Assembly (NCBI GenBank): GCA_963680875.1
Contig: OY804588.1
Span: forward strand, 74,548,829 to 74,612,828
DNA: 64,000 nt
From: Bathymodiolus brooksi
Lineage: Eukaryota; Mollusca; Bivalvia; Mytilida; Modiolidae
Direction: 5' to 3'
In this document: positions 7,966 through 58,162 of the stretch, in pieces
Position numbering within the stretch: position 1 is the stretch's first letter
Layout of the letters: each line of letters opens with the position of its first letter
The notes under the pieces: generated by a model
Databases searched by the model: none
What the model saw: only the letters and a program-made list of their open reading frames with translations
Told to the model about the DNA's origin: nothing
Program-made: the position numbers and the translations under genes

Positions 7966-8138
7966 TGCATAATTATATTTTCAGGTTTAACAGATTTCAT
8001 ACGATTATCTTAACAGACAGAACAACAAGGCCCGTTTTTCCTCCATTTATATTCATAATTTAACACCGTATTATCGTCTATCAAGAATTCAAAAATATTA
8101 GTGAAAATTTCCAGTGAATTTGATTTTGTTTGTATATA

Positions 8139-10133: not shown

Positions 10134-10355
10134 TTTCCTGAATGTAATGTTCGCGGCTGTCTGAAGCCAAAGAAAAATAATACTTTACTAGAGGAACACT
10201 GTTTCTGTTCTGATCAATTGCGATTTTCTGCATATTAAGTTCGCGTCTACCTGAAGCCAAAGAAAAATGATACTTTACAAAAGGAATATTGTTTCTGCTC
10301 TGATCAATTGTGATTTCCTAAATACAAAGTTGATGTTTGTCCAAGGCCAAAGAAA
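10086..10355 (+). repeat. Three 90-bp tandem copies of the DUF229 gene tail
   Basis: Units begin at 10086, 10176 and 10266 with AATAATACTTTAC or a one-base variant. The first includes the end of the coding region and the TGA at 10131-10133; the other two lie downstream. Units keep the reading frame (90 = 3 x 30) and each can encode a CFCSDQL-type ending. The TGA position is CGA in the second unit and TGA again in the third. Confidence 0.85.
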
Positions 10356-20379: not shown

Positions 20380-20525
20380 TCAAGATATTCTGAATTTCCG
20401 TCTTCCTCGTTTCCGATGAAGAGATCTAGTTTGTTGTTCTTCTTTAGTCCGTGCAATAAATTTCAGTTCACTTTCTGTATTGTTCATTGCTTAAAACACA
20501 TTTGCATTTTCCGGAATTAAAAATT
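20380..20525 (-). CDS. RalGDS-like gene, last exon (RA domain end) with an internal TAA
   Basis: Acceptor TATTCCTTTTCAG, phase 1 in. It reads [11 protein letters not shown], then TAA (20491-20493) exactly where the family has Tyr, then [19 protein letters not shown] and a basic tail ending at TGA (20380-20382). The conserved sequence on both sides of TAA, in one frame, shows the original exon ran to the TGA. As printed the protein would end at visible residue 604 and lose the last RA strand and tail. Loss of function, a polymorphism or a base error are all possible. Confidence 0.8.
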
Positions 20526-26500: not shown

Positions 26501-29500
26501 GCTTGATTTTGTGGAAGAGTTGCTGATTGGTCAATTTATGATACATTCATCTTGACTCCTGACATGACCCCTAAAGTAGCGTTTTCAGATAGGGAGCAAG
26601 TATGGAGATCTAATTTTAATTAGATTGGGAGTGGGGGGAGACAGTAAATTATACCTACCCCAGGAGTGGGGGGGGGGGGAGACAGTAAATTATACCTACC
26701 CCAGGAGTGGGGGGGGAGACAGTAAATTATACCTACCCTAGGAGTGGGGGGAGACAGTAAATTATACCTGCCCCAGGAGTGGGGGGAGACAGTAAATAAT
26801 ACCTACCCCAGGAGTGGGGGGAGACAGTAAATTATACCTACCCCAGGAGTGAGGGGGGAGACAGTAAATTATACCTACCCCAGGAGTGGGGGGAGACAGT
26901 AAATTATACCTACCCCAGGAGTGAGGGGAGACAATAAATTATACCTACCCTAGGAGTGGGGGGGAGACAGTAAATTATACCTACCCCAGGAGTGGGGGGA
27001 GACAGTAAATTATACCTACCCCAGGAGTGGGGGGGGGGAGACAGTAAATTATATCTACCCCAGGAGTGGGGGGGAGACAGTAAATTATACCTACCCTGGG
27101 AGTGGTGGGGAGACAGTAAATTATATCTACCCCAGGAGTGGGGGGAGACAGTAAATTATACCTACCCCAGGAGTGGGTGAGACAGGCGAGTCTAATGAAC
27201 TACATATGCTGGACCTATCATCTAGTCCACATGAAAATATTGCTAATTTTGATCCATCTAATTTCATTGGTTTACTGCCAAGGCTAAAATAAAAACAAAG
27301 ACAAATTCATTGTTATGACTGTAAACAACAAGTGTGAATACATGTCTTGTGCAAAATACTTCCCCAGTTTTCTAAAGGATAAAAATAAACTATATTTCAC
27401 TACCATCAACAGAGACACTGAAAATTATTTCTGGTGATTTTTAATATTTCTTGTATCTTGATCTAGTTGAAATTTTAGAAGAATCAGATTAAGGTTGTTT
27501 TTCCCTATCAGCACCTACTTGAAGTAAAGTTGTCTTATATCATAAAATTTGAACCAAAAAAAGTTTGTCAGAGGAGTGGTTTGTATTGTTGCCATTGGTT
27601 AAAGTGCCAACCATTCTTGTTCAACTTCTTTTTAAAGCAAGACTTACTGTCATAAAACTTCTTAGTACTAATTTCGTACTCTAAAATTGTGTAATCAAAC
27701 AACAAATATTGGATACATCATTCTGATTGGATGTTTTTTAACAAGGACAACAATTATACACAAAAATGTTTTATGTTGCAGCCATGATTCACTGACTTTT
27801 TATTGTTGGAGTTTGCCTAATTTATTTTGAATCCTATATTTCTCTGATGTTGTTTTGTACTCTTTCATCCAGTTAGACCATACGTAAGTGGGTAGAAGAC
27901 AGAATCATTAATAGTTTTAGAATTACTTTAAAAGAAAACAAAATGTTTACATCAAGTATAATTAAAATTTGTACCAACCTTGATGATTTCTTTTTTAGTC
28001 GAGTGGTTCCCTCTTTTGGTGGTTCAATAGAACAGGACAAGTCATGACTGAAATTACCATTAAATACAACTAAACAAATAGTTTATTAAATTTTTATTTT
28101 GTTCAAGAAAAGATGAAAAAAATCATTTTTGACAAAATACTGACATTTCCTGAATTAAGCAGATCAATTTATTTCTCTGTCAAAATATAAAATTCAATGA
28201 TTAGGTTTATGGTGTTTAACGCCACTTTCAACAATATTTCAGTTATATCGTGGCGGTCAGTTTTATTGGTGGAGGAAACGGGAGTACGCTGAGAAAACCA
28301 TCTGTCGCAAGTCACTGACAAACTTTATCATATAATGTTGTATCTAGTACACCTCACCATGAGTGGGATTCGAACTTTAGTAGTGGTGATAGGCACTGAT
28401 TGTGTAGGTAGTTGTAAATCTAACTACCATACGATCACAACCACGGCCCCTGGCATGTTTTCAGTACATCATACAAAATTTACTAAAATGGGATAATACT
28501 TTTATTTCAAGTTAGCCAAAGAAATGACTAATCCCAGTTTGAGATTTAAGCAAGACTCATAATAATGTAGACCAATTATTAAAACCTTTAAACTCAATTT
28601 AATAATGATTGTTGTAAAGGTAAAATGGTAAAATATATTTGTATAATAAATCATTTAAAATCATTTCTATTTATATGAAATGACACATCTTTCCTATTCC
28701 TCACTGGTACATTTAAAGTATTCAATGCCATTTGCTATAATATTTCCTTTATACTATGGCTGGATTGTTTTTTGTGGTAGTTAGTTTTGTTGGAGGAGGG
28801 AAAGCAGTACTTATATAACCTGTTGCACACACATTGTAACTGACAAACTTTATCATATAAATTATGTCATAAATCTGTAAGTGCTGCTAAAGTATATGTT
28901 ATAAATTGAAGATTAAATTACATAATTAAATATCTACCTCTCGGTTTCATCATAGACTCTCACAGCATCAAACCATATCCACACTTGTTTATCTTCAGTA
29001 AAATTATAAATCTGAGCCGCAGATTGTAAAAGTTTTATTTGGGCAAGAACTTCAAATTCTTTCCGTCTTTTATCAAAGTTAATTAAACTATCTTCCGTTC
29101 TGTCTGGAATAGCACTATCAATCATAGTTAAGTCTGTTAAAAATGTTCCTAAATATGGCACGGTTCCCTGTACTATTCCCTGTAATGGTAAAAATTATTA
29201 TTACTTTGTATATAGAATAACGGTTTGTTTGTTTGCTTGCTGGTGTTTAATGCCACTTCAACAACATTTCAGGGCCCGGGTGGCTCAATGAGTTAGGTAA
29301 TTGGATTACCTGACAACTCATACAAGCCTATTACCAATACTGCGTGGGTTCGTGCCCGGCTTTGTAAATTACAAAAAAGGGTGCACTCGACTTATACTGC
29401 AAGTGATAAAGTTTACCAGTTGCTTGCCCATGGTCGGTGGTTCTCTCCGGGTACTCCGGCTTCTTCCACCACTAAAACTGGTCGCCATGATATAGCTGAA

Positions 29501-32500
29501 ATATTGCTGAAAGTGGAAAATTAAACACAATAAATCAAATCAAATCAAATTTCTTACCCAAGAAGGGAACCAAATTTACAAACCGTAGTGTTGATAACCA
29601 CTATTACATAGTTAGATTGAAGTCTTATTATCATATTATTGCAGCCACAATAATATTAATGGCCTTCATTACTTCAGCCACAATAATATTAATGGCCCTC
29701 ATTACTTCAGCCACAATAATATTAATGGCCCTCATTACTTCAGCCACAATAATATTAATGGCCCTCATTACTTCAGCTATCTTAAATACAGTGAAACCTG
29801 TCTAAACCGAATCCTGAATAAACCAAAATCTTTTATAAATCAAACTTGAAATAAGATCCCAAATGTAAAAAACTGTTGTTAATTCAACCTGTATAGACCA
29901 AACACCTGTCTATTTTGAACACAAAGGCTGGTCACAAGGAGGTTTGTCTTAGGAAGTTCAATTCAGACAGGTTTAGTTGTACATTACATATAAGACAGCT
30001 ACATATACTTCACACTTCACTAGTATTATAAACCTCTTACATTATCAATCCATGACTGTCTCTTCTGCATATTTCTTCTTCTAGTTGTTTTACTGCTGAC
30101 ATCAACTTCAGCAAACTTAGCAGTTGCTTCCTTAAAATAACAACAACAAAATTTATTTTATTTAGATTTGTGAATATTTTTTTACACCTGACTCAGAATT
30201 TCTATACAAAAATTAACATCATTCTGATCAGTGGGAAATGAGTTGTTTATTGACTTTTTATTTCATTTATCTTGTCGTTTTAATAAGGTCTCTTATATTC
30301 CTTTTGTAGGGTCGTTATGGCCACGATTGCATGGTAGTTGGATTTATAACTACCTATGCAATCAGTGCCTATCACCACTAAAATTGTGAGTTTGAATCCA
30401 GCTCAGGCGAGATGTACTCGGTACAACATTATGTGATAAAATGTGTCACGGACTTGAGGCAGGTCGGTGGTTTTCTCCGGGTGCTCCAGTTTCCTCCACC
30501 AATAAAATTGACAGCCACGATATAACTGAAATATTGTTGAAAGTGGCGTTAAACACCATAAACCACAAATGATAACCATGAAAATTGGTATTCAATGAAT
30601 GAAAATGACTTCATAGAAATTATAGATTAATGCATCCCTTTTTTGATATCAAGACTTATCATCCCGAGAGACCGATATCAGCCAGAGGGCTTTAGCCCGA
30701 GGGTCGATATCAGACGAAGGATGATAACAATCCTGATATGGAAAAAGGCATGCATTAATCTATTTATCACATATTTCAACATTGAATTGAGAGGCTTGAT
30801 ATCGTGTTATCAGAGTTTTGCCTCGATATCTGCCCATGGACTGTAATCGCAGTGGCACTTCCGGTGTTTACGTATGGGCAAAATTGACGTTATTACTTAT
30901 AAATATGTGATAATATATTGTATTGAATGTCTAATAATGCTACAATGACATGACAATAATAATATATATAATAATAATAATACTTTATTTTATGAGGGTA
31001 AACTCAGTTAGCTACACTAATCTTCCCTGGTAAACATACCTTCATTAATACTTCCCTGGAGGCTTTTTGATTATTTTCATTAGAAAATATTTCAGCAAGC
31101 TTTTGGAACAATTCAATGCTTTCTCTGAAAAAAATCATGTACAAATATAACAAAGTGAGTGTGACACAATATATAGGTTAATAAATATAAAATTCTAGTA
31201 CATCTATCTAGATTTTCAAGGTATATAACATACATGTAGTGTTCCCTTCATCCAAATAGTTGATAACCATAAAAAGATGAACAGATTTGATCTTTGTTTG
31301 ACTATATTTTAACTTGAATAATTGACCCCAGGCCAGTAGTAAACCTTCTTTAAAAATCGAAAAGAAATACAAATTCAGTGAGTATGGAATGTATTGACTT
31401 GGAAACAAAGTGTAGAGCTTATATATGATATGAAAATGGAGACATTTTGCCTTGTTTGATAATCATTTCATTCTGCTCTGAGGAAACTTAATACAGAACC
31501 TTCCATAGTCTATAGATGCTTCCCCCCAAATTTCGGTTTGCTTTGGCAAAGCAGTTTCAGAGAAGAAGATTTTTTAGAAAGCGACCAATCTAAAACAAGA
31601 ATTGCCTGTGGCAGCCATGTTTGTTAATGGATCAAAACGAAATGAGCAATCTCTATAGAGAACCTTCCTTAGATGCTTCTTACCAAGTTTCATTTCATTT
31701 GGCCAAGCGGTTTCAGAGGAAAAACTGTTTTAGAAATCAAACAATCAGAAACAAGAATTGTCTATGACGGCCATGTTTGTTAACGGATCAAAATGGAATG
31801 AGCATTTCCCATAGAGGACCTTCCATAGATGCTTCCTTCCAAGTTTCGGTCTATTTGGCCAAGCTGTGTCAGAGAAGAAGATTTTTAGAAATTGACCAAT
31901 CAGAAAAAATAATTGTCTGTGGTGGCCACGTTTGTTAACAGATTGGGACAAAATGAGCAATCTTTATAAGAGGACTTTCCATAGATGCTTCCTACCAAGT
32001 TTCAGATCATTTGGCCATGCGGTTTCAGAGGAGAAGATTTTTAGAAATAGACCAATCAGAAACAAGAATCACCTGTGGTGGCCATGTTTGTTAATGGATA
32101 TGGGCCAGAATGAGCAATCTTTATAGAGAACCTTCCATAGATGCTTCCTACCAAGTTTCGGTTCATTTGGCCATGTGGTTTCAGAGGAGAAGATTTTTAG
32201 AAATAGACCAATCAGAAACAAAATTGCCTGTGGTGGCCATGTTTGTTAATGGATCGGAACGAAATGAGCACTCTTTATAGAGAACCGCCCATAGATGCTT
32301 CCTACCAAGTTTCGGTTCATATGGTTGAGGGGTTTCAGAAGAGAAGAATTTTTAAAATCAGCCAATCAGAAACAAGCGTCGCCTGTGGTTGCCATGTTCG
32401 CTAACGGATCGAGACGAAATGAGCAATCTTTATAGAGGATCATCCATAGATGGTTCCTACCAAATTTCAGTTCATTTGGTTGAGGGGTTTTAGAGGTATA

Positions 32501-35500
32501 TTTATCTGTAATTCAATTCAGAGATAACTGCATTTTGAATAGATACAAAATGTATCTATATTTAACTAGAGTTCTCTCCCTTTTACCAGAAAAAATGATT
32601 TTTTAGATATCACTCAATCAGAAACAAGAATCGCCTGTGGCAGCCATATTTGTTAACAGATCAAGATGAAATTAGCAATCTTTATAGCGGACCTTCCATA
32701 GATGCTTCCTACCAAGTTTCGGTTCATTTGGCTAAGCGGTTTCACAGGAGAAGATTTTTTAAAATAGACCAATCAGAAACAAGAATTGCCTGTGGAGGCC
32801 ATGTTTGTTAATGGATCGGGACAAAATGAGCAATCTTTATAGAGGACCTTCCATATATGCTTCCTACCAAGTTTCAGTTCATATGGTTGAGGGGTTTCAG
32901 AGGAGAAGATTAAAATGTGAAAAGTTAACGGACGACAGACGCCAAGTGATGGCAAAAGCTCACGTTGCCTTTGGCAAGGTGAGCTAAAAAATGAAATAAT
33001 CATCTTTCATTGCCTGTCAGTGTAAGTGCTATATTCTTATGAGATATTTATTTATCGATGATTAGTACATTTTCCCTTTGATCTTTGATAACATCTATTA
33101 TCAAGAAACTAGCGTGATATTAACATAATATAGCTGTTTTCTAATGTGACGTTATAATGACATCACTAATGTCACATTACTTAATAATATAGCTGTTTTC
33201 TAATGTGACGTTATAATGACATCACTAACGTCACATTACTTAATAATATAGCTGTTTTCTAATGTGACGTTATAATGACATCACCAAAGTCACATTACTT
33301 AATCCTCAATAAACATACTATTGTTGATTTGTTTTGCTCAAATTTGGATTTCTCACAGAACAAATCAACAATAGTATATATGCATGTACAACCTTAGGCC
33401 AAAATTAAAAAAATTGTTTGCTTCCCGCACCCGACTGACCGTTAGAAAACGTTGCAACTCGAAATATTTTTTTGCATGATTTGCGACGACTTTTTTTTTT
33501 TATTGGTTACCGGAAATCGTGACCGGAAGTTCCGATATTGTTCCAGAATTTACGTTAGGAACTGGTTTACACTTTTAAATGAACAAAATCCGTTGTTCGA
33601 TTTTGAAGGAAGCAGATTTGTGAATGAACGCAGTCTATTTTCAAAAAAAAAAAAAAACCCTTACCTACCGATCCATAGGTGAAATGGAGGGTCGGGTGCG
33701 GGAAACGAACATATTTTTAAGGGTGGCCTTACTATTCAGAATTTTGTGATTCTCATCTTTTTAGTTTTCTGTGTTGTCCTATCATGTGTCTAAACGTTTT
33801 TAGTTCCGTGTTGTGATGTCAGTTACGATTTCCACATAAAAACAATGTTCGGTTCGTCTTTATCCCAAGTTGTTTGTAGGAAGGCTAATGTCTTATTGTG
33901 TTGTTTGTGTATGTATGTATATAGTGGTGTCCAAAATTGTGTCCTGTCATAAGTTTTTACATATTGACTACAGTATCCCATCTTGAAGTTGAATGGTCTA
34001 TATTCATAAAATTTTAATATTAATTTAATAAGCAAGGCATTTTCTTTATAAAAATGGTGTGTTCTAGCTATAGTATCAGACATGAAATACTTACTTAGGT
34101 AGAGACGACCAGCATCTCCGTAATCTATAAATAGAATGAGCTTGCAGACCTGAGATTATCGCCTTCAATGAGGAAAAATTCTTTAGATTTCTTAATTCCT
34201 GTAAAATAAGACAAGAACTCATATAATGACTGTGTTATGTTATATACTGGTACCAGTGTATCTACAGGTACCAGTCATCAAGCTAAAAAATAACAAAAGT
34301 ATTCAACCAATCATGTGAAATTGGTAAGATCTATATTTACTTGTACAGAGTTGTTTTAGATACTTACTTGAGCAATATCTATCCATTTCTGTATAATTCT
34401 AGATTTGGCTTAAGATACTTACTTGAGCAATACTTATCCATTTCTGTATAATTCTAGTTCGCTGAGATACTTACTTGAGCAATATCTATCCATTTCTGTA
34501 TAATTCTAGCTTACTGAGATACTTACTTGAGCAATATCTATCCATTTCTGTATAATTCTAGTTCGCTGAGATACTTACTTGAGCAATATCTATCCATTTC
34601 TGAATAATTCTAGCTCGCTGAGATACTTACTTGAGCAATATCTATCCATTTCTGTATAATTCTAGATTTGGCTTAGATACTTACTTGAGCAATATCTATC
34701 CATTTCTGAATAATTCTACCTCGCTGAGATACTTACTTGAGCAATATCTATCCATTTCTGTATAATTCTAGATTTGGCTTAGATGCTTACTTGAGCAATA
34801 TCTATCCATTTCTGTATAATTCTAGCTCGCTGAGATATTTACTTGAGCAATATGTATCCATTTCTGAATAATTCTAGCTCGCTGAGATATTTACTTGAGC
34901 AATATCTATCCATTTCTGTATAATTCTAGCTCGCTGAGATACTTACTTGAGCAATATCTATCCATTTCTGAATAATTCTAGCTCGCTGAGATACTTACTT
35001 GAGCAATATCTATCCATTTCTGTATAATTCTAGCTCGCTGAGATACTTACTTGAGCAGTATCTATCCATTTCTGTATAATTCTAGCTCGTTGAGATACTT
35101 ACTTGAGCAATATCTATCCATTTCTGTATAATTCTAGCTCGCTGAGAGGCTCGTAATTCTGGATTTTTCAGAATTGTAGCTGTGACCCGTAACGATACTC
35201 TATTAAATTGTTCTATTGTTGCCAACACACTGGAGGCAACATTACCTCCCCTGCCATGCTTCCTATCTCTACGTGACCACACAGCACCCAGACACTGGTG
35301 AGGTACAACCATTTTGAATAATTGCTACAAAATTAATATGGTTTATATTATTATTACTGGTGTTAACTAAAGTAAATTAATGATAATAAATATTTTTCTG
35401 AAAATTTTCTCTGGAAATTCTAATAGTCATTGATGACCAATTTGTTATACTCTGATCGACTGCCATAATTTAATTTAAACATATTTCATTGTCTAAATAA

Positions 35501-44408: not shown

Positions 44409-44441
<33 letters not shown>

Positions 44442-47400
44442 AAGAGAAATATGTGTCCATAGGACATGGATGCCCCCAATTCTAGATAAAGTAAACATGG
44501 GAATAAGGGGAATAACTCCAGAATGGAAAAAGTGGTGAGGTCCATAATCAAACTTTGCCTTCATATTATTGTCCCTGAATTTCAAATGATTTACTTAAGG
44601 GAAACTTAGAGGTAACCAAATGTGGGACGGACGGACAGACATGGGTACAACTAAATGCCCCGATGCCTAGCGGCGAGGGCATAAATAGATCATTAAAAAT
44701 TTTATGCAAATCATGAAATATCATTATAACATGCAGGATTATTTGTCAGCCTCTGAGGTCATAGATTAAAGTTCAAAGATCAAGGTCATTTTCTGTTTTT
44801 TTTTATTTTATATTCTACCTTTGTTGAACATCGTGCAACTCTTTCTTCTCTTTACTTTCAGTGCCAGTTTTCTTCAACCATTTGAATCTGAAATATTAAA
44901 GTGAATATTAACATACAGTCGTGAATCAAAGTGAATATTAACATACAGCCGTGAATCAATTATATTTTACAGCATGTACAACAATGTAGAGCTCACGGAT
45001 AATAAATGTCATGTTTTCCAGTAACTTGACCAACCATCCATCCAACACTGTCCTTTTGCCAAATTTTGTTGTAAGGAAATTACAAAGAACATTATTTTGT
45101 ATAAAATAAAGCCAGTATTATGACTTTTTTATGTTTTTCCGCAAGTATTTAACAGTTCATCATGACACAGTGGATCATGTAGAAGAAAAACATTATTGCA
45201 GGAAGAAAAATATTTACACAGTAAAATTAAAATTAGATGTTTGTTGTATCTTTCTATCATTGTCATTATTTTTTGTGATACACTAACATCTACTGGGATT
45301 CAGCATAGGTTACCATAACTAAGGGTTATTATTTTTTGTGTTACACTAACATCTACTGAGATTCAGCATAGGTTACCATAACTAAGGGTTATTATTTTAA
45401 AACCACCAATCAGCAATGAGCCTACCAAATCTTGAGGTATTAAAACCAAGCACATGCTGAGAGCTGTTGTCAGATTGGGTTAGGGTTATGGTGTTTAATG
45501 CCACTTTCAACAATATTCCACCTTTTCATTGCAAAAGGGGTGGCTTTATAAGAGGCAAACTTAACTCAGTATCACTTTCCTATACTACAAGATCAGTAAC
45601 CTCCATAATTTAGATAACAAAATCTCTTTACAGTACAATAGTAATATACAATAAAATTCAGGGGCCGTCGTTGCCGTGATTGTATGGTAGTTGGAGTTAC
45701 AACTACCTATGCAATCAGTGCCTATCACCACTGATGTTGTGAGTTCGAATCTCGATCAGGGCGAGGTGTACAACCTTATGTCATAAAGTTTTGTAATATC
45801 CGTAAATATTTCATATCTGCATCGTCCATGTTTATAGTTTCTGATATTATGTTTGAACCTAATTATAATAAGATAACTGAGTCAGCAAGAAAATCTTTGT
45901 TGTTTTTTCCACCAGAAACATCCAAATATTACATTGGCGACGATATGATGGGATACAAATAACAATCTAAAACATCATAAATGGTACAGAGGATCGCTTA
46001 AAACCCCATTCTCCTGTGACCAAACGAAATTAAAAGGAAAACATTGCAAAACACAATACCGCAGTTTCCCCCATTCAATGTACACGCAGAAGGGTCTACA
46101 TCCACATGTTGGAAGAAATGGAAAGATAGATTAGACAATTTGCTCGTAGCAATGAACATTACAAATGCAAATAGAAAGAAAGCTTTATTACTTCACTACG
46201 CAGGTGAAGAAGTACATGATATGTTCAGTACGTTAACCCTAGCTCCACATGTAGGGGAAGGTGATCTTGACCTATACAAACAAGCATCAGATGCATTAAA
46301 TGACTACTTCATTCCAAAACGAAACAAAGAGTATGATATATATAAATTCAGACAATCAAAACAAGAGCCAGGGGAAAGTATTGACACGTACCACACAAAA
46401 CTACGAAAACTAGCAGAAAACTGTGAATTTGCCAATGTCGATGACGAAATTAAGTCCCAAATAATCCAGTCTTGTAGTTCGACCCGACTGAGACGCCGTG
46501 CACTTAGAGAAAATGAAATAAATCTTGAACAATTACTGAAACTTGCACGATCATTTGAAATAAGTGAACAACAGGCCAGTGGCATAGAAAAAACTGAATC
46601 AGCACATGCAATACATACCAAGACTCGTTCTAACCCACCATCAACTCATGGAAATTATAGAGGTGGCAGAAAACCAAGTAATGCACCTGAACACAAACAA
46701 GGTGGCAGAAAACCAAGTTATACACCTGAACACAAACAACAAAAATGTTACAACTGTGGAGGCTCTTTCCCACACAAAGGTGTTTGTCCAGCAAAAGGAA
46801 AAACTTGCAATAAATGTAAGAAATCAAATCATTTCGCAAAAGTCTGCCGATCAGGAAAAAAGGTATATTCTCTGACAACAACACAACACACTTGCTCTAG
46901 TTCTGAAGATGAATATTTATTTGGTTTAAATGAACATAACAACACTAAACAACCAAAAGCTACAGTCTGTCTGAAAGAAACACAACTTGAAATGGTTGTA
47001 GACACAGGAGCTACTGTAAATATTATGGATGAAAATACTTTGTCAAAACTCAAATCGCAACCAAAGCTCAACAACACAAAAACTAAAATTTATCCATATG
47101 GATCTGGCAAATCAATTGACATTATAGGAACATTTGACTGTGAAATAAAATCCGACATTCATAAAACAGCTGCCAACACAAGTATTTATGTTGTAAAAGG
47201 AAGCTATGGATCTTTACTAAGCTATGCAACAGCAGTAGATCTGAACATTATTCCAACAATCCGAGTAGTTCACAGCTCTGTAACAGATGATATAATAAAC
47301 AATTTTGCAGACCGCTTTGAAGGTATTGGCAAAATGAAAGGACTACATGCAGAGATACACATTGACAAAAACATAGTTCCAGTAACACAGCCACACAGGA

Positions 47401-50400
47401 GGATTCCATTTCATTTGAGAAAGAAAGTCGAGGATGAATTAAAGAGACTTGAAGAACTCGATATAATAGAAAAGGTAGATGGACCTACTCCTTGGGTATC
47501 ACCAATCGTAGTCGCACCAAAACCGAAAAACCCTGATGAAATCAGAATCTGCGTAGACATGCGTTTACCTAACAAGGCTGTTAAAAGAGAGAGTCATATA
47601 ACTATAACAATAGATGATATTATAGTTGAATTAACAGGAGCAAAAGTGTTCTCAAAATTGGACCTCAACTCTGGATATCATCAGGTAGAACTCAGCCCGG
47701 AGTCTAGATACATTACCACATTTACCACTCATGTTGGTCTTAGACGCTATAAGCGACTTATTTTTGGCATATCTTCAGCTGCTGAAAAGTTTCAAGCAAT
47801 CATTCGAGATTCACTGGATGAATTACAGGGTGTCAAGAATATTAGTGATGATATAATCATATATGGGAAAGACCAGGCAGAACATGACTTGCGACTAAGA
47901 AAAGTGTTTGAGCGACTGCGTAAGAAAAACATTACACTCAATAAAGGAAAGTGTGAATTCAATCGAGACAAAGTTGAATTCTTTGGCTACGTCTTCTCAA
48001 AAGATGGAATTTCGGTGGACCCAATGAAAATCAACGCCATAAAGAATGCTGAACCCCCGAAAAATGCTGCAGAAATTAGAAGTTTATTAGGATTGGCAAA
48101 CTATGTGTCCAGGTTCATTCCTGACTTTGCAACAATCACTGATCCACTAAGAATACTAACACATAAGAACACTCAGTGGAAATGGGAGACAACTGAAATA
48201 AAAGCATTCAACACTTTAAAAGACAAGTTAACAACCAGCGCAATGACATATTTTAATCCATCACTTCACACACAAGTTATTGTTGATGCAAGTCCGGTTG
48301 GTCTAGGAGCAATATTAGTGCAGGAAGGCAAAATTATCTCGTATGCAAGCCGTGCATTGTCTGGCGTAGAGAAGAGATACTCACAAACTGAAAAAGAGGC
48401 ACTAGCCATAGTATGGGGATGTGAACATTTTCATCTATATCTGTTTGGATCAGATTTTACTTTAATCACTGACCACAAACCTCTTGAGATTATTTTCAAC
48501 AATGGCAAATCAAGACCCCCAGCTCGTATCGAACGATGGAGACTCAGATTGCAACCATATGATTTCACCGTCACGTATCGACCAGGATCAAACAACCCAG
48601 CTGACTACATGTCTCGTCATCCATACACAGAAAAGAATGAAAAACATTTTCGACATGATAAAATGGCAGAAGAATATCTCAATTTTATCACCACTAATGC
48701 GATTCCGAAAGCAATGACACCAACTGAAATAGCGAATGCGACTACCCATGATGACATTTTGCAAGATGTAATATCAAGAATATTCACAGGGAGATGGAAA
48801 GGACTTCAACAGAGATATGACATTCAGCCTTTTATCCGTGTGAAAGATGAACTTACAATTGTACCAACTTCAGAAGGAAGCATATTACTGTGTAACAATC
48901 GTATTGTCATACCAACAACACTTCAACAAAGAGTAGTAAACATTGCACATGAAGGACACATGGGAATAGTCAAGACAAAACAACTTCTAAGAGAAAAAGT
49001 GTGGTTCCCTGCAATGAACAATTTAGTAGAAAGTACATTAGCACAGTGCTTACCATGTTTGGCAAGTACACCATGTAACAACACTGAACCATTAAGAATG
49101 ACAAACTTCTGGAAAAACCTTGGTCTCATGTTTCAGCTGATTTTTATGGACCATTACCAACTGGTGAATATTTGTTAGTCTTGATGGATGATTATTCAAG
49201 ATTTCCGATTGTCGAAATAACAACTTCAATTTCAGCAAAGGCAATTATACCGAAATTGGACAAAATATTCTCAATGTTTGGGATTCCGGATGAGTTTAAA
49301 ACTGACAATGGACCACCATTTCAAAGTTTTGAATTTGAGCAGTTTGCCAACTATCTTGGATTTCACCATAGGAGAATAACACCTCTTTGGCCAAAAGCTA
49401 ATGGAGAAGCTGAGAGATTTATGAGAACTATTGGGAAGGTTATTAAAGCTGCGCAAATTGACAAGAATTGGAAACAGGAATTGTACAAATTTCTAAGAAA
49501 CTACCGTGCAACACCACATTCTACCACAGGTGTTCCGCCGGCTCAAGCATTATTTGGAAAGAACATTCGAACAAAACTGCCTGAATACTCTACAAAAGTG
49601 AAGAAGGAAGTTGACATTCACAAACGTGACGAGGAAAACAAGTGTAAAATGAAAGAATATTCGGACAATAAGAACAATGCTAAATATTCTGGATTTAATG
49701 AAGGCGATTGTGTGCTAGTTAAAATGCCAAAAACAAATAAATTCTCAACTCCATTCAAACCTGTTCCGTATAAAATTATATCGAAAGCTGGATCACAAAT
49801 TACAGCCAGCACAGGAGATCACACCATCACGAGAAACTCGTCACACTTTAAGAAAATTAAGAAGGAACTTATGGAGGACATTTTGAATAAAGACAATGAT
49901 CTTGATGAAGAACAGTTAGAATTAGACAATGAAGAATTTCAGAACAATACATCTGACAATACCGACCAACATATCAGTGGTGATAATGTTAATCTGAGAA
50001 CAACACGTGTTCGTAAATCACCATCATACCTGAAAGACTATGTGTGTAAATAATTTGTAGGGAATTGGGTAAATATGTGACAAGGGCAGAATAATCCCTT
50101 TATATTTACCTCTAGGCAGGCAGTCTACCTAAGCCTAGTTTCTTGATTATTTAGTTAGTACTATTTTAGTAGTTTAGCAATTAAAGTTAAGCTGATTTCA
50201 AAAACCGTCATTAAAGGAACTATTTCTGAACTTTATATGCCAATCTAGTCAGGACAATAATACTCAGACTGTGATAAAGTAAACTTTACTTTTTCCTTTT
50301 ATATCAGTTTATATTATTTTATTTTGTATTTTCATTTCTAAAGGAAAGGAGAAATGTAATATCCGTAAATATTTCATATCCGTACCGTCCATGTTTATAG

Positions 50401-51676
50401 TTTCTGATATTATGTTTGAACCTAATTATAATAAGATAACTGAGTCAGCAAGAAAGTCTTTGTTGTTTTTTCCACCAGAAACATCCAAATATTACAAGTT
50501 TGTCAGTGACTTGCGACAGATCAGTGGTTTTCTCCGGAGCCTCCGGTTTCCTCCACCAATAAAAAACTGACTACCACATTGTAACTGAAATATGGTTGAA
50601 AGTGGCACTAAACACCATTAAACAAACAAACAATACAATAAAATTCCTTCTTTTCAGTCTGTTCAATGCTAATCATTAGACAATCAGGGGCTTGTCTCTA
50701 AAGATAAGTGATACATTTTAATTGCTATCTTCTCACTGTTTACACAATACTAAACATGTTTATATTCTACAGTTAACACAGTAATTTGTCATTATATAAA
50801 CATCTACTCTTCTGCCAATCTTACTATTAGAAAAAGGGATTTGCTGTCCTAATGTTTTTGCCAAATTACATGGAAACACAACTGTTTTTAATGTTGTCCT
50901 TAGATGTTGTATGTTACTTAGCAACACAAATTATGCAACAAAATAAACAAGTTACATGGTTACCAGGATGGGTATGTGATTTTTTTTGGGGCTTGTTTCA
51001 GTATTTGTTGACATTGTCATGGTAACAACATAAGTTTGAAACTAGGAGTGTGACCAAAAAAAATCTACAAATTTCTATAATTCTTCATAAATACCACATA
51101 CATGTACTGGAAAACATACAATAGATTTATGATTTCCAAATTAAAATTATACAAGGGGAGATAATTCACTTAAAAACAGCTCTTAATACTAATGATAATA
51201 TTTAGATCTTCTATTGTCTAGTATACATATTGTTTCGAAATAAATAGCTTAATCCAACTTGAAGCACTTTGATAGTGCCATTGTTACAAACTGGTAGCAT
51301 ATGATCACCTCATGGTCAGAAAACTGTGGGTTAGATCACATGACACAGGTCTGGTCAAACCAAAAACCATTTATTAGTATCTTCTACGACCCCAAGATAT
51401 AGCTGAAATACTGCTAAAGTTGGTGATAAACAATCAATCAATCAATCGATATTCTACAAGAACAACTTACCTGTCTATTAATAGATCTAAGACTTGTTTG
51501 GGTGAGGCGAATGTTCTGAAGGTAGCTAAGAATACATTAACATAGGTAGAGTCCAGCTCCCCTTTTAATGTTACTAAACTTTCCACTAGTTTTTCTAGAG
51601 TGCCAGCTGTTATAACTCTTATTTTCTGTGTCTCCCACATAAGGTGAGAAAACTCCTTGGCATTGTCATCCTCCAA
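20380..51676 (-). CDS. Ral guanine nucleotide exchange factor, RalGDS/RGL family (14 exons; 5' end outside window)
   Basis: RalGDS-type proteins activate Ral GTPases downstream of Ras; the RA domain binds Ras-GTP. I traced 14 exons: 51471-51676, 44819-44887, 40529-40713, 36116-36249, 35103-35324, 34095-34198, 31040-31124, 30041-30130, 28938-29179, 27979-28047, 27166-27283, 25039-25182, 24124-24235 and 20380-20525. All have matching phases and, except one acceptor, GT-AG ends; they sum to 642 codons with the stop. Visible residues about 20-150 are RasGEF_N ([19 protein letters not shown]), 185-450 the CDC25 catalytic domain ([61 protein letters not shown]), then a Ser-rich linker and an RA domain from about 535. 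RGL1-3 and RalGDS cannot be told apart here. Two lesions (acceptor at 36250-36251, TAA at 20491-20493) may be real or assembly errors. Confidence 0.9.
20749..23966 (+). repeat. 1.53-1.55 kb tandem segmental duplication, two full copies and a partial third
   Basis: Copy 1 20749-22276, copy 2 22277-23824, partial copy 3 23825-23966. Copies 1 and 2 differ by one 20-bp insertion near 22500 and a handful of substitutions, so the duplication is recent. Small open frames inside (for example 21317-21544 and 22865-23092) are identical in each copy and show no known similarity. A more diverged fragment of the unit's end lies at 23975-24090. The array sits in the last intron of the RalGDS-like gene. Confidence 0.95.
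24124..24235 (-). CDS. RalGDS-like gene, visible exon 13 (RA domain, middle)
   Basis: 112 bp, phase 0 in, 1 out. Encodes [20 protein letters not shown] then [12 protein letters not shown], the helix and following strand of the RA fold. Acceptor TTTTTTATTGTAG, donor GTAAGTTTAC. Confidence 0.88.
24236..24848. other. Intron sequence, nothing recognised
   Basis: Between visible exons 12 and 13 of the RalGDS-like gene. AT-rich, no repeat family recognised. Confidence 0.5.
24849..25018 (-). repeat. tRNA-derived SINE (family 2), partial
   Basis: Matches 7690-7965: GATTCCGAGC, TTTGCTCTTACTCC, TTAGCGAAG and a minus-strand GGGTTCGAGCCC B box. Lies in the intron just downstream of exon 25039-25182. 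Confidence 0.65.
25039..25182 (-). CDS. RalGDS-like gene, visible exon 12 (linker and start of RA domain)
   Basis: 144 bp, phase 0 in and out. Encodes a Ser-rich start, [20 protein letters not shown], then [20 protein letters not shown] and KSIM, the first strands of the Ras-association domain. Acceptor TTTCTTTCAG, donor GTAAGTAG. Confidence 0.88.
25190..25345 (+). repeat. 43-bp tandem repeat beside an acceptor, 4 copies
   Basis: Units share AGTTATCTCCCTTAGTGAAA and AAACCTG. The array begins about 8 bp upstream (in transcript sense) of the acceptor of exon 25039-25182 but does not include it. Confidence 0.8.
25555..25930 (-). repeat. Decayed SINE fragments
   Basis: 25555-25670 retains GGAGGAAACCATAG, CTGGAGAAAACCA and ACAAACTTTATCA of the main SINE family. 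25720-25930 has weak resemblance to the body of SINE family 2 (GATGAGATGATG, TAGACTGACATGTTGA, GGCTAACTCACTGAAAC). Confidence 0.5.
26238..26485 (-). repeat. SINE, main family
   Basis: Plus strand begins GGTTATGGAGTTTAACGCCA, then TTAGTGGAGGAAACTTGAGT, CCCGGAGAAA and a B box on the minus strand (GAGTTCAAATCCC). In an intron of the RalGDS-like gene. Confidence 0.75.
26617..27185 (-). repeat. Minisatellite made of the donor site of exon 27166-27283, about 15 copies
   Basis: Read on the minus strand each unit of about 37 bp is CCACTCCTGGGGTAGGTATA followed by ATTTACTGTCTCCCCC. The first unit is the real exon end, CCCACTCCTGGG|GTAGGTATAA; the others repeat it in the intron. C-run length varies between units. 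Most copies keep GTAGGTAT; a few have GTAGATAT. Confidence 0.9.
27166..27283 (-). CDS. RalGDS-like gene, visible exon 11 (Ser-rich linker)
   Basis: 118 bp, phase 2 in, 0 out. Encodes a poorly conserved linker ([20 protein letters not shown] then [16 protein letters not shown]). Acceptor TTTTATTTTAG; donor GTAGGTATAA after CCTGGG. The donor with about 18 bases of exon is tandemly amplified in the following intron (26617-27165). Confidence 0.75.
27979..28047 (-). CDS. RalGDS-like gene, visible exon 10 (end of catalytic domain, linker)
   Basis: 69 bp, phase 2 in and out. Encodes [20 protein letters not shown], matching the SCxxEPP end of the catalytic domain in RalGDS. Acceptor GGTAATTTCAG, donor GTTGGTAC. 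Confidence 0.85.
28195..28450 (-). repeat. SINE, main family, near full length
   Basis: Plus strand shows GGTGTTTAACGCCACTTTCA, TTTCAGTTATATCGTGGCGG, GGAGGAAACGGGAGTACGC and the inverted head ending at ACCACGGCCCC. Confidence 0.8.
28700..28870 (-). repeat. Strongly decayed SINE copy
   Basis: Only AATGCCATTTGCTATAATAT, GTTGGAGGAGGGAAA and GACAAACTTTATCATAT are recognisable. Confidence 0.45.
28938..29179 (-). CDS. RalGDS-like gene, visible exon 9 (catalytic, C-terminal blocks)
   Basis: 242 bp, phase 0 in, 2 out. Encodes [40 protein letters not shown] and [15 protein letters not shown], the best conserved part of the family. Acceptor CCATTACAG, donor GTAGATAT. Confidence 0.95.
29235..29540 (+). 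repeat. Second SINE subfamily, inserted into a fragment of the main SINE
   Basis: 29235-29271 is a minus-oriented main-family tail (GGTGTTTAATGCCACTT). It is cut by 29272-29540, a plus-oriented element with head GGGCCCGGGTGGCTCAATGA, B box GGGTTCGTGCCC, the shared centre TCTCCGGGTACTCCGG and the tail TTGCTGAAAGTGG followed by an AATCA microsatellite. So two heads are joined to one common centre in this genome. Confidence 0.75.
29640..29778 (+). repeat. 33-bp tandem repeat, 4 copies
   Basis: Unit CAGCCACAATAATATTAATG plus GCCCTCATTACTT. Its frame (29617-29805) is open only because 33 is divisible by three. Confidence 0.9.
29787..29981. mobile_element. MITE with TACAGTGAAACCTG-type ends
   Basis: Left TACAGTGAAACCTGTCTAA, right inverted TACAACTAAACCTGTCTGAA. 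TA at both ends fits a Tc1/mariner-like target. Relatives at 15381-15549 and 54434-54596. Confidence 0.75.
30041..30130 (-). CDS. RalGDS-like gene, visible exon 8
   Basis: 90 bp, phase 0 in and out. Encodes [20 protein letters not shown] and [10 protein letters not shown], the basic loop before the conserved GTVPYLG block. Acceptor ATTTTAAG, donor GTAAGAGG. Confidence 0.88.
30308..30566 (+). repeat. SINE, main family, full length, plus orientation
   Basis: Head GGGTCGTTATGGCCACGATT, B box GAGTTTGAATCC, centre GTTTTCTCCGGGTGCTCC, tail TTGTTGAAAGTGGCGTTAAA. It lies antisense in an intron of the RalGDS-like gene. The best copy for reading the whole element in one direction. Confidence 0.85.
30625..30763. 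mobile_element. Short palindromic MITE
   Basis: Ends AGATTAATGCATCCCTTTTT and its inverse AAAAAGGCATGCATTAATCT. The centre is itself near-palindromic (GATATCAG ... CTTTAGCCC ... CGATATCAG). Confidence 0.65.
31040..31124 (-). CDS. RalGDS-like gene, visible exon 7 (catalytic)
   Basis: 85 bp, phase 2 in, 0 out. Encodes [19 protein letters not shown] then KASREVLMK. Acceptor TTTTTTTTCAG, donor GTATGTTTACC. Confidence 0.92.
31440..32990 (+). repeat. About 165-bp tandem repeat, roughly 8 units, part of a dispersed mollusc-type repeat
   Basis: Units share GGCCATGTTTGTTAATGGAT, AACCTTCCATAGATGCTTCC, TTTCAGAGGAGAAGATTTTT and CCAATCAGAAACAAGAAT. The block ends TTAACGGACGACAGACGCCA, then TTGGCAAGGTGAGCTAAAAA. 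The same ending occurs at 60660-60745 and 61870-61935. The many small frames in it are fragments of the repeat. It sits in the intron between visible exons 6 and 7. Confidence 0.8.
33080..33385. repeat. Dispersed repeat with a 59-bp internal triplication
   Basis: AATATAGCTGTTTTCTAATG recurs at 59-bp spacing three times from 33126 to 33300; each unit has an inverted pair AATGTGACGTT / AACGTCACATT. Then an inverted pair ACTATTGTTGATTTGTT (from 33314) and AACAAATCAACAATAGT (to 33377). Related to 18300-18530. Confidence 0.65.
33391..33731. mobile_element. MITE with about 42-bp TIRs
   Basis: Left TTAGGCCAAAATTAAAAAA then TTCCCGCACCCGAC; right, inverted, TAAGGCCACCCTTAAAAA then TTTCCCGCACCCGAC. 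The interior frame (33452-33682) shows no recognisable protein. Confidence 0.65.
34095..34198 (-). CDS. RalGDS-like gene, visible exon 6 (catalytic)
   Basis: 104 bp, phase 0 in, 2 out. Encodes [20 protein letters not shown] then [13 protein letters not shown], the conserved NFSSL block and catalytic helix region of RasGEFs. Acceptor TTATTTTACAG, donor GTAAGTATTTC. Confidence 0.95.
34362..35145 (-). repeat. Minisatellite made of the donor site of exon 35103-35324, about 15 copies
   Basis: On the minus strand each 52-bp unit (57 bp in variants) reads GAGCTAGAATTATACAGAAA, TGGATAGATATTGCTCAA and GTAAGTATCTCAGC. The first unit is the true exon end and donor; about 14 copies follow in the intron. 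Three units carry AAGCCAAATCTAG instead of CAGCGAGCTAG; two or three have GTAAATAT in place of GTAAGTAT. Reading past the true donor meets TAG after eight codons. Confidence 0.95.
35103..35324 (-). CDS. RalGDS-like gene, visible exon 5 (RasGEF catalytic, start)
   Basis: 222 bp, phase 0 on both sides. Encodes [38 protein letters not shown] and [15 protein letters not shown], the first conserved blocks of the CDC25 homology domain. Acceptor TTTTGTAG, donor CAA|GTAAGTAT. The last 45 or so bases plus the donor are repeated about 14 more times in the downstream intron. Confidence 0.95.
35325..35689. other. Intron sequence, nothing recognised
   Basis: AT-rich spacer between exon 35103-35324 and a SINE. 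Confidence 0.4.
35690..35945 (-). repeat. SINE, main family
   Basis: TTAATGCCACTTTCAACAAT, GTGGAGGAAATGGGAGTATC and a minus-strand GAGTTCGAATCCC B box; head ends near 35945. Intron between visible exons 4 and 5. Confidence 0.75.
36116..36249 (-). CDS. RalGDS-like gene, visible exon 4, acceptor changed from AG to AA
   Basis: Encodes [18 protein letters not shown], then [20 protein letters not shown], the approach to the catalytic domain. Donor GTAAGTTAT follows GATGCA, phase 0 out. The first base is inferred from 29 of 32 upstream tandem copies that read TTTTACAG before ATGGTGG; here the sequence is TTTTACAA (36250-36251 mutated). A TATAG 12 nt downstream (exon then 36116-36237) would keep the frame and drop four residues. 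Using the next upstream copy's AG would run into TAA near 36282. Confidence 0.7.
36184..39064 (-). repeat. 90-bp minisatellite made of the acceptor site of exon 36116-36249, 32 copies
   Basis: On the minus strand each unit reads TATTACCCTAACCTTAACGT (branch-point-like CTAAC), TTATGATTATTTTACAG (acceptor) and then the first 53 or so exon bases ATGGTGGTATAGAGTTCCGT to GATCGTATGATG. Periodicity is exactly 90 bp throughout with one or two substitutions per unit. Because 90 is divisible by three, open frames of more than 900 codons arise on both strands; the minus one is in the frame of the gene. AG is replaced by AA in the unit next to the exon and in the units near 38230 and 38690. Confidence 0.97.
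39113..39382 (-). repeat. SINE, main family, full length
   Basis: GGTGTTTAACGCCACTTGCA, TACCGTGGCGGTCAG, ACCCGGAGGAAATCATCGAC and the inverted head ending ACGACCCC. Confidence 0.8.
39404..40455 (-). repeat. SINE family 2 with an internal 40-bp array of about 18 copies
   Basis: 39404-39450 and 40165-40455 are the two ends of a family 2 SINE (GTGAGTGAGTGATTGTTGTT; ATTCTGATTCCGAGCAAACC; minus-strand B box GGATTCGAACCC). Between them AGAACAAGCTTACATGTTGA and TGAGATGATTTATCATGGCG repeat every 40 bp from about 39450 to 40165. The expansion arose from the element's own interior. Confidence 0.85.
40529..40713 (-). CDS. RalGDS-like gene, visible exon 3 (RasGEF_N, last part)
   Basis: 185 bp, phase 2 in, 1 out. 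Encodes [19 protein letters not shown] then [16 protein letters not shown], matching the end of the RasGEF_N module. Donor GTACGTAT after AGATCTG; acceptor TTTTTCATAG. Confidence 0.9.
40787..41733 (+). mobile_element. CAGTCAAACCTG MITE whose left end has been amplified about 18 times
   Basis: TACAGTCAAACCTGATTTAG at the left and, inverted, TACAGTCAAACCTGTCTAAT at the right mark a MITE of the 19396-19578 family. The left 45-52 bp (GTCAAACCTGATTTAGTGAT, GACCTGTGACCTCTATTAAG) is repeated from 40787 to 41580; a single normal MITE body follows (41560-41733). Confidence 0.9.
42019..42292 (-). repeat. SINE, main family
   Basis: GGTTTATGGTGTTTAATGCC, TTTCAGCTATATTGTGGATG, GGAGGAAACCAGAATACCC and inverted head ending ACGACGCCCC. 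Confidence 0.8.
42293..43049. other. Intron sequence, nothing recognised
   Basis: AT-rich intron of the RalGDS-like gene with a local duplication of ACAGAGACAAAATGGATACT near 42935-42990. Confidence 0.4.
43050..43195 (+). repeat. About 25-bp tandem repeat, 5-6 copies
   Basis: Unit CCTCCCCTCTTGGTGAAATA plus CAAA or a variant. Confidence 0.85.
43500..44818. repeat. Intron with local duplications and SINE debris
   Basis: 43510-43600 keeps a SINE fragment (TTATTGGTGGAGGA). 44036-44365 has about four imperfect copies of CACATGGGGGAATTCAATGG and GGTGAATTTAAAAAAGAAAC. 44410-44450 is an A-rich tract. 44620-44690 has GGACGGACGGACAGACATGG and a GCCTAGCGGCGAGGGC hairpin, resembling the end of a dispersed repeat. 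Confidence 0.55.
44819..44887 (-). CDS. RalGDS-like gene, visible exon 2
   Basis: 69 bp, phase 2 in and 2 out. Encodes [19 protein letters not shown], a charged segment linking helices of RasGEF_N. Acceptor TTTAATATTTCAG, donor GTAGAATA. The intron upstream (44888-51470) contains the Ty3/gypsy element. Confidence 0.8.
44888..45478. other. Intron sequence with a 77-bp duplication
   Basis: A block including TTTTTGTGATACACTAACAT, CAGCATAGGTTACCATAACT and AAGGGTTATTA near 45269-45330 is repeated directly at about 45332-45395. Confidence 0.6.
45792..45933 (+). repeat. 5' LTR
   Basis: Begins TGTAATATCCGTAAATATTT, ends CCAAATATTACA. Unusually short at 142 bp. No obvious TATA box beyond generic AT-rich sequence. 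Confidence 0.95.
45934..45951 (+). promoter_or_regulatory. Putative primer-binding site
   Basis: TTGGCGACGATATGATGG follows the LTR with no gap. TGGCGAC starts are common in gypsy primer sites; I do not assign the tRNA. Confidence 0.6.
46044..50053 (+). pseudogene. gag-pol polyprotein, frameshifted and without an ATG at the expected start
   Basis: Frame 1 (46044-49178) contains gag; two zinc knuckles near residues 234-270 (second one [14 protein letters not shown]); protease DTGA at residue 320; reverse transcriptase with ISDDIIIYG at 600-608; RNase H starting [10 protein letters not shown] at 747; and the integrase zinc module with HEGH at 969 and CLPC at 1002. The frame then breaks at an A run (49113-49117), apparently one base short. 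The rest of integrase continues in another frame to 50053: Asp at 49139, TDNG Asp at 49304 and Glu at 49412, with 35 residues between the last two (DD35E). The reading frame starts at a TTG (46044); an in-frame TGA lies at 46017 and no ATG is near, so the copy probably cannot initiate gag normally. A one-base assembly error at the A run is possible. Confidence 0.9.
50340..50354 (+). promoter_or_regulatory. Polypurine tract
   Basis: AAAGGAAAGGAGAAA directly abuts the 3' LTR, as needed for plus-strand priming. Confidence 0.85.
50355..50496 (+). repeat. 3' LTR
   Basis: 142 bp, matches the 5' LTR with three transitions clustered near base 27-33 and one near base 103. Confidence 0.95.
50631..51284. 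other. Intron sequence, nothing recognised
   Basis: AT-rich; no gene or repeat family seen. Confidence 0.4.
51285..51450 (+). repeat. Decayed SINE tail with ATCA microsatellite
   Basis: ATATAGCTGAAATACTGCTA and AAGTTGGTGATAAACA resemble the 3' end of the SINE family; followed by CAATCAATCAATCAATCGAT. It ends 20 bp from the donor of exon 51471-51676. Confidence 0.55.
51471..51676 (-). CDS. RalGDS-like gene, visible exon 1 (RasGEF_N, first part)
   Basis: Acceptor TTTTTATTTCAG precedes TTGGAGGATGAC; donor follows GATCTATTAATAGACAG. Phase 0 in, phase 2 out, 206 bp. It reads [18 protein letters not shown], then [11 protein letters not shown] and [13 protein letters not shown], the start of the RasGEF N-terminal module. 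Codon 1 is TTG and it is an internal exon, so there must be upstream exons; none is recognised in 51677-64000. Confidence 0.9.
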
Positions 51677-51970
51677 CTGAAATAAAAATAGATATTATCT
51701 ATTTATAACTCGTATCTTCTGTGTCCCCCACATAAGGTGAGAAAACTCCTTGGCATTGTCGTCCTCCAACTGAAATAAAAATAGATATTATCTATTTATA
51801 ACTCTTATTTTCTGTGTTTCCCACATAAGGTGAGAAAACTCCTTGGCATTGTCGTCCTCCAACTGAAATAAAAATAGATATTATCTACAATGTATTTATA
51901 ACTCGTATTTTCTGTGTCTCCCACATAAGGTGAGAAAACTCCTCGTTATTGTCGTCCTCCAACTGAAATA
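51677..51970 (-). repeat. Tandem copies of the acceptor and start of exon 51471-51676 (3 extra copies)
   Basis: On the minus strand each unit of 92-100 bp is ATTATCTATTTTTATTTCAG followed by about 70 exon bases (TTGGAGGACGACAATGCCAA, GGAGTTTTCTCACCTTATGT, GGGAGACACAGAA). Acceptor AG positions: 51677-51678 (true), 51769-51770, 51863-51864, 51963-51964. In the copies the frame stops soon after the duplicated part (ATAAATAGATAA). Confidence 0.93.
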
Positions 51971-52269
51971 AAAATATATATTATTCATCAATTAATGCTT
52001 CTTAACTAACGTATGTCTACTAGTAATTTTTGACAGACAGTTTTATTGGTAGAAGAAAATGAAGTACCAAGAGAAATCCACCAGCCTGTCATTGTAACTA
52101 GTTAATAGGAAAGCTCTTCAATTACACCCTTCCACCTCCCCATGATTATACCAAGAACATGAGAAGATTTATTGATTTAGACATGGATAAATTGAAATAA
52201 AATTTATGCTAAAAATTTGTTATAAAGAAAATATATCACTGCTCCCCTCCCCATCATTAATATGCCAAG

Positions 52270-57600: not shown

Positions 57601-58162
57601 AATGTTTACAAGCACTCACTGACTCTACTATTGTACTCTCTAATGTTTACAAGCACTCAATGACCCTGCTATTGTACTCTCTAATGTTTACAAGCACTCA
57701 CTGACCCTACTATTGTACTCTCTAATGTTTACAAGCACTCACTGGTCCTACTATTGTACTCTCTAATGTTTACAAGAACTCACTGACCCTGCTATTGTAC
57801 CCTCTAATGTTTACAAGAACTCACTGACCATGCTATTGTACTCTCTAATGTTTACAAGCACTCACTGACCCTGCTATTGTACTCTCCAATGTTTACAAGC
57901 ACTCAATGACCCTGCTATTGTACTATAATGTATACAAGCACTCACTGACCCTCCTATTGTACTCTCTAATGTTTACAAGCACTCACTGACTCTACTATTG
58001 TACTCTCTAATGTTTACAAGCACTCACTGACCTACTATTGTACTCTCTAATGTTTACAAGCACTCACTGACTCTATTATTGTACTCTCTAATGTTTACAA
58101 GCACTCACTGACCCTACTATTGTACTCTCTAATGTTTACAAGCACTCACTGACCCTACTATT
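54655..58162 (+). repeat. 41-bp satellite, about 85 copies
   Basis: Consensus GACCCTACTATTGTACTCTC plus TAATGTTTACAAGCACTCACT. Variants (CTGCTATT for CTACTATT, CAATG for CACTG) are interspersed. Marked variants recur about 1 kb apart, for example ATTGTCCTCTCTAATGG at 55561 and 56543, showing block duplication inside the array. No frame is coding. Confidence 0.97.

Follow-up and report, generated by a model that had tools for sequence, protein, structure and literature searches.

The stretch of DNA analyzed in this study (the window) is 64,000 nucleotides of the Bathymodiolus brooksi contig OY804588.1 (positions 74,548,829 to 74,612,828 of the forward strand; GenBank assembly GCA_963680875.1). 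Its minus strand carries an RGL/RalGDS-like gene, in which four exon-intron junctions are each covered by a tandem array. The gene was identified by a protein search with the joined exons and by Pfam. Among the four exon open reading frames (ORFs) scanned with Pfam, E1 matched RasGEF_N and E4 and E5 matched RasGEF, and the E3 ORF matched no family. The top protein match of the joined exons, P0001, has 681 amino acid residues and 94% identity and is encoded on a contig of 2,268 bases, which is presumably a transcript given this length. The next match was RGL1 of Mytilus trossulus, the closest named relative (88% identity). Further matches were from other molluscs, with bivalves dominating the top of the list. 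A scan of genome contigs for relatives of P0001 gave 16 pattern matches, none of which is a relative, and a scan of viral contigs gave no match. The exons were placed by tblastn of the proteins P0001 and P0002 together with reading-frame checks, and no 5′ coding exon preceding E1 was found within the window by the same tblastn searches. Joining the exons gives a coding sequence of 1,923 bases, free of frameshifts and with a single in-frame stop codon. The gene and its exons are as follows.

20383..51676, minus strand: RGL/RalGDS-like gene of 14 exons (Pfam, tblastn, coding sequence in frame)
51676-51471, minus strand: E1 (RasGEF_N ORF)
44887-44819, minus strand: E1b (gene model)
40713-40529, minus strand: E2 (gene model)
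36249-36116, minus strand: E3 (gene model)
35324-35103, minus strand: E4 (RasGEF ORF)
34198-34095, minus strand: E5 (RasGEF ORF)
31124-31040, minus strand: E6 (gene model)
30130-30041, minus strand: E7 (gene model)
29179-28938, minus strand: E8 (gene model)
28047-27979, minus strand: E9 (gene model)
27283-27166, minus strand: E10 (gene model)
25182-25039, minus strand: E11 (gene model)
24235-24124, minus strand: E12 (gene model)
20525-20383, minus strand: E13, the last exon (gene model)

The affected junctions, 4 of the 27 in the gene, are two acceptors (E1 and E3) and two donors (E4 and E10). Each array was found by Tandem Repeats Finder (TRF), by direct reading, and in a copy table.

51610..51984, minus strand: array over the E1 acceptor, 4 copies spaced 93-100 bp apart
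36197..39057, minus strand: array over the E3 acceptor, 32 copies spaced exactly 90 bp apart
34358..35147, minus strand: array over the E4 donor, 15 copies spaced 52-55 bp apart
26628..27185, minus strand: array over the E10 donor, 15 donor-bearing copies and a partial tail, spaced 35-41 bp apart

In each array, one copy is contiguous with the exon and the others are decoys, 62 in total (3, 31, 14, and 14 for E1, E3, E4, and E10, respectively). A canonical AG or GT is present in 59 decoys, GC in one, and AA in two. In the E1 array, all four copies have AG, including the exon-contiguous one. The E3 decoys have AG in 29 of 31 cases and AA in the other two, and the exon-contiguous copy also has AA. 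All 15 copies of the E4 array have GT, while the E10 decoys have GT in 13 of 14 cases and GC in one. The E10 donor itself is GGG|GTAGGT in phase 0 (the bar marks the junction); an alternative reading, GTAG|GTATAA, was ruled out by the reading-frame phase with E11. The earlier note, made from the sequence alone, had described two amplified acceptors and two amplified donors in a RalGDS-like gene, with 3, 31, about 14, and about 14 extra copies of unrelated units. These observations were confirmed: the arrays lie close to where they had been placed, the copy tables agree with the numbers, and the four consensus units are unlike one another in both length and sequence.

The E3 array shows concerted turnover, seen in its uniform 90-bp spacing and in a 5-copy (450-bp) block, with unit starts from 38698 to 38338, which recurs at 38248 to 37888. 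Short shared sequences may have been joined in the founder duplications, namely TCT at E4 and CTGTCTC at E10, as judged by eye and with no control; at E3, no clear shared stretch was seen by eye in the printed flanks. In the protein alignment, none of the four boundaries carries an extra copy in P0001, whose contig is too short for introns. According to TRF, the junction arrays have 4.0-31.8 copies with 90-96% identity, similar to arrays of the same gene that touch no junction, such as a 40-bp array (18.1 copies, 94%) and a 43-bp array (18.6 copies, 90%).

Repeats of this kind have a name. They were called "mirages" in amphioxus Adh3, where somatic instability is described, and mirages are also reported in the amphioxus globin genes BflGb6 and BflGb9 (PMC3087553). 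Splice-site repeats are described in lancelet PGBD5, with TnC (troponin C) cited as another case (PMC3902484). As described in these two reports, amphioxus mirages occur at both boundary types, carry AG/GT decoys, undergo concerted turnover, and are compatible with regular splicing. The mussel arrays resemble them in that the unit spans a donor or an acceptor and has exonic and intronic parts, that both boundary types are affected, that decoys with AG or GT are many, and that the copies turn over in concert. Unlike the amphioxus cases, the host is a bivalve and not a cephalochordate, four arrays lie in one gene, the copies number up to 32 (the reported BflGb6 haplotypes have 6 and 3 repeat units; PMC3087553), and one exon-contiguous splice site has been lost, as known here from one assembled sequence. 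Thus, the suggestion of the earlier note that no named phenomenon matches does not hold. The mussel case is a further example of a known phenomenon and not a new one; its unusual features are the phylum, the number of arrays within a single gene, their copy numbers, and the loss of an exon-contiguous acceptor. In the open-licence literature, the relevant reports found on "mirage(s)" were two lancelet papers, and searches aimed at mussels or bivalves gave no molluscan example. An abalone gene is described as having an intronic 27-bp minisatellite, with nothing on a splice site in the available part of the report; likewise, the available part of a report on amphioxus huntingtin mentions tandem repeats and no boundary duplication.

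Other known systems are less similar. In the Rogers model, introns are gained by tandem duplication, and one duplication across a boundary can be enough to create a new intron, as described for potato RdRp (PMC4974935). The potato case shares with the mussel arrays a duplication across an intron-exon boundary. In contrast, the mussel copies can lie in existing introns and no new intron is needed. The protein alignment of the relatives has no insertion at the four boundaries. Introner-like mobile elements place one element at many intron positions, while the four mussel units differ from one another. In human segmental-duplication genes, internal tandem repeats with units of about 30 bp on average are reported, some of them at exon-intron boundaries; roughly half of the variable ones fall within coding regions, and for some of those at boundaries the formation of new introns is proposed (PMC2812944). 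Those repeats resemble the mussel arrays as minisatellite expansions in genes, some at exon-intron boundaries, but the mussel coding exons are not lengthened.

The earlier note had stressed that the arrays extend into the intron only, while the true exon stays single. The arrangement is real, but it is a geometric necessity and does not count as evidence. When an acceptor is duplicated in tandem, the downstream copy adjoins the exon body, and thus the other copies fall on the intron side. A donor duplication is the mirror image, so that the extra copies are intronic and the exon stays single. I simulated the use of 60 decoys, leaving out the two AA decoys of the E3 array. A premature stop resulted in all 60 cases (3/3 for E1, 29/29 for E3, 14/14 for E4, and 14/14 for E10); when the E3 decoys are read, a TAA sits in the penultimate copy. 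For E1, E4, and E10, the exon-contiguous site alone keeps the frame among the sites tested. Thus, the site adjoining the exon is expected to be the useful one, and the arrays would be tolerated only if this site wins. Exon definition predicts that it does.

Constraint on the decoys was assessed in the E3 array, using its 30 inner copies. Per site and copy, the exonic part shows 0.0245 differences, compared with 0.0090 for the intronic part. The exonic part has 39 differences, of which 18, 11, and 10 fall on codon positions 1, 2, and 3, and no sign of purifying selection on this part was seen in these copies. The difference counts are inflated by the 5-copy block that occurs twice; by variable columns, the figures are 13 of 53 exonic and 5 of 37 intronic. 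The intronic part contains the splice signal, and its lower rate could be read as constraint there, with too few columns to tell.

The E3 boundary is not intact, and the gene has a second lesion in its last exon.

36250..36251, minus strand: lost acceptor dinucleotide, AA for AG, directly before E3 (copy table, alignment of relatives)
within 20383..20525, minus strand: in-frame TAA in E13, 36 codons before the normal end (tblastn, joined coding sequence)

Both lesions had been missed by the earlier note. The exon-contiguous E3 copy reads ACAA|ATGG. Among the relatives, the aspartate that an unbroken AG|AT junction encodes is found in P0001 and P0002, and Mytilus trossulus is among its carriers. 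Two AGs inside E3 lie in the correct phase and would give exon starts at 36237 and 36189. The AA of the last E3 copy is common to two decoys, and this copy also has a change absent from both. The AG may have been lost by gene conversion from the decoys, while an independent mutation would be as likely; array homogenization could have helped to break the E3 site. Together, the lost acceptor and the E13 stop suggest a damaged allele or a decaying paralogue. On this basis, the gene copy is probably impaired, and it may be in decay as an allele or as a paralogue. Gene presence-absence variation is described as widespread in Mytilus galloprovincialis (PMC7653742), and a dispensable gene copy would therefore be unsurprising.

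Missense changes were also compared, using a 570-amino-acid model without E1b and E13 and Mytilus trossulus as the judge. The 13 differences from P0001 comprise seven derived in the window, four derived in P0001, and two ambiguous ones. Among the window-derived changes, K to T at 23 and L to V at 309 affect positions that are invariant in the other relatives having a letter there, those at 58 and 319 affect positions with one exception among the relatives, and L to R at 119, I to K at 304, and R to C at 515 affect positions where the relatives have similar residues. Seven of 11 is not significant alone (sign test about 0.27, by hand).

Do the arrays prefer junctions? The array list was made from TRF rows with a score of at least 50 in the span 20383-51990, with overlapping or adjacent rows merged by hand and homopolymers excluded. 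The junction arrays are a minority in this span, which has 13 non-junction arrays, or 14 with one inside a retroelement. In the placement test, each array was collapsed to one unit and placed uniformly, excluding exon interiors. With 18 arrays, four junction-spanning arrays were observed against 0.85 expected (P 0.008). P was 0.007 with 15 arrays (units of at least 24 bp, the retroelement array omitted), 0.0013 with the 10 arrays of at least 4 copies (0.55 expected), and 0.016 with 17 arrays after removal of the retroelement (1.04 expected, four observed). Arrays lying across a junction or within 20 bp of one were 6 of 17 (1.73 expected, P 0.0044), and those within 75 bp were 8 of 17 (3.03 expected, P 0.0053). 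In the point-wise test, a 60-base window was scored for a nearby copy spanning its center with a score of at least 40. This was found for 4 of 27 junctions and for 36 of 600 random intronic centers (P 0.076, binomial; 0.086, Fisher); two more junctions had weak matches, with scores of 19 and 21. Since the pattern was the reason for choosing this gene, these P values overstate the evidence. The junction excess may be mild and real, and it is unproven. As a separate observation, two further arrays stop just upstream of an acceptor without including it: the array at 25196-25342 ends about 13 bases before the E11 acceptor, and the array at 44898-44959 about 10 bases before that of E1b.

It is likely that these arrays are bivalve mirages made by ordinary minisatellite-forming duplications in a repeat-rich gene, 4 of about 17 arrays happening to include a splice junction. 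In this explanation, duplications would hit the gene and some of them would cross splice junctions. Exon definition would pair the far splice site of an exon with the nearest partner, so that the exon-touching copy, namely the last acceptor or the first donor of the array, would be used. The remaining copies would become part of the intron and be free to drift, and unequal exchange or slippage would lengthen or shorten the array. Duplications within exons would mostly be purged by selection, leaving the surviving arrays that touch coding sequence on coding edges. A case with the same anatomy is found elsewhere in the window.

10086..10331, plus strand: 90-bp array of 2.7 copies over the stop codon of a DUF229 gene (TRF, ORF reading)

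The DUF229 ORF (within 8124-10133, plus strand) has its real stop codon in the first array copy, with the remaining copies located in the 3′ flank. This single case without a splice site favors a general filter by which edges tolerate copies: a duplication over the edge of a coding sequence would be harmless if the copy attached to the body remains functional. The earlier note had proposed a mutational process, or a tolerated state, tied to junctions. The latter is supported, as a junction-crossing duplication leaves a usable exon-contiguous copy, except at E3 where the site is broken, while the former is not established.

Several points weigh against this explanation. The array excess at or near junctions, mild as it is (P 0.001 to 0.08, depending on the test), is not explained by a purely random model. 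Since the E3 exon-contiguous site is broken, either the rule that the last copy is used fails there or the cryptic AG 12 bases inward is used. As to impairment, the coding sequence is frameshift-free and its stop lies merely 36 codons from the end, so that impairment is not proven; the missense ratio of 7 to 4 adds little and is not large enough to demonstrate relaxed selection.

A mutational process tied to exon-intron junctions, for example one linked to transcription or splicing, might instead seed duplications there. The placement test speaks for it, with four spanning arrays against 0.85-1.04 expected (P 0.007-0.016), a stronger signal for arrays of at least 4 copies, and an excess within 20 and 75 bp. 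On the other hand, the point-wise control is not significant, the pattern is the reason why the gene was picked, no junction is spanned by 13 of the 17 arrays, and the array over the DUF229 stop codon involves no splice site. I regard such a process as very unlikely. A related possibility, that junctions are minisatellite hot spots in this lineage and that the arrays later break the real splice site by decoy homogenization, resulting in a slow and self-made gene loss, appears quite unlikely. If it were true, the lost E3 acceptor beside 29 intact decoys would be a mirage-driven gene loss caught mid-process.

An inflated or misassembled sequence, in which the E13 stop and the missing AG would be base errors, is very improbable. 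Arrays as long as 2.9 kb pose difficulties for assembly, and one amphioxus mirage is reported as seemingly aberrantly assembled in the draft genome (PMC3087553), but the array copies bear distinct and structured variants, no frameshift is present in the 1923 coding bases, and the neighboring DUF229 ORF is identical at 657 of 663 residues to a protein from another source (its best match, differing at six residues; the next-best relatives are only about 57% identical). It is also highly doubtful that the decoys are functional and that the gene is regulated through poison splice sites. Canonical dinucleotides in 59 of 62 decoys, GC in one more, and a stop from every tested decoy would suit such regulation; however, recent homogenization alone can explain the retention of the sites, no purifying pattern is seen in the exonic parts, and at E3 the exon-contiguous site itself is lost. 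Finally, the E3 array could be read as a coding repeat, its stop-free 90-bp unit being translated as a repeated protein segment. The unit length is a multiple of three and a frame of 933 amino acids runs through the array, but the TAA in the penultimate copy truncates the product from all 29 AG-bearing upstream acceptors, repeats are absent from all 10 relatives covering the E3 boundary (11 aligned), no constraint is seen at the codon positions, and the opposite strand is equally open (968 amino acids), as expected of near-identical stop-free units. This reading, which is hardly credible, was rejected on the penultimate-copy TAA and the lack of repeats in relatives.

Mirages under that name have been reported from lancelets, and the present bivalve case is extreme, with four boundaries in one gene and up to 32 copies. 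It provides a natural test of how the spliceosome chooses among dozens of near-identical neighboring sites. The broken E3 boundary raises the question of whether the arrays are neutral passengers or slow eroders of host genes. Junction arrays are also a likely trap for gene annotation.

The window has other repeats and elements. The DUF229 ORF has a sulfatase Pfam match below the cut-off. Most of intron 12 is filled with about two tandem copies of a 1.55-kb unit at 20749-23977 (98% identity), which exceeds the TRF period limit of 500. The intron between E1 and E1b contains the retroelement mentioned above.

45792-50496, plus strand: Ty3-like retroelement, antisense in the E1-E1b intron (reverse transcriptase, RNase H, and integrase domains)

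Its gag and protease matches are below the cut-off, 142-bp direct repeats with 97% identity lie near its ends, and its long ORF contains a two-copy repeat of 39 bp, a multiple of three, at 46661-46739. Upstream of E1, one 41-bp minisatellite occurs in two places, at 54683-58162 (about 85 copies) and at 62878-64000 (at least 27 copies, reaching the window end). A second, different 41-bp unit forms two arrays about 1 kb apart, at 5891-6156 and 7183-7374.

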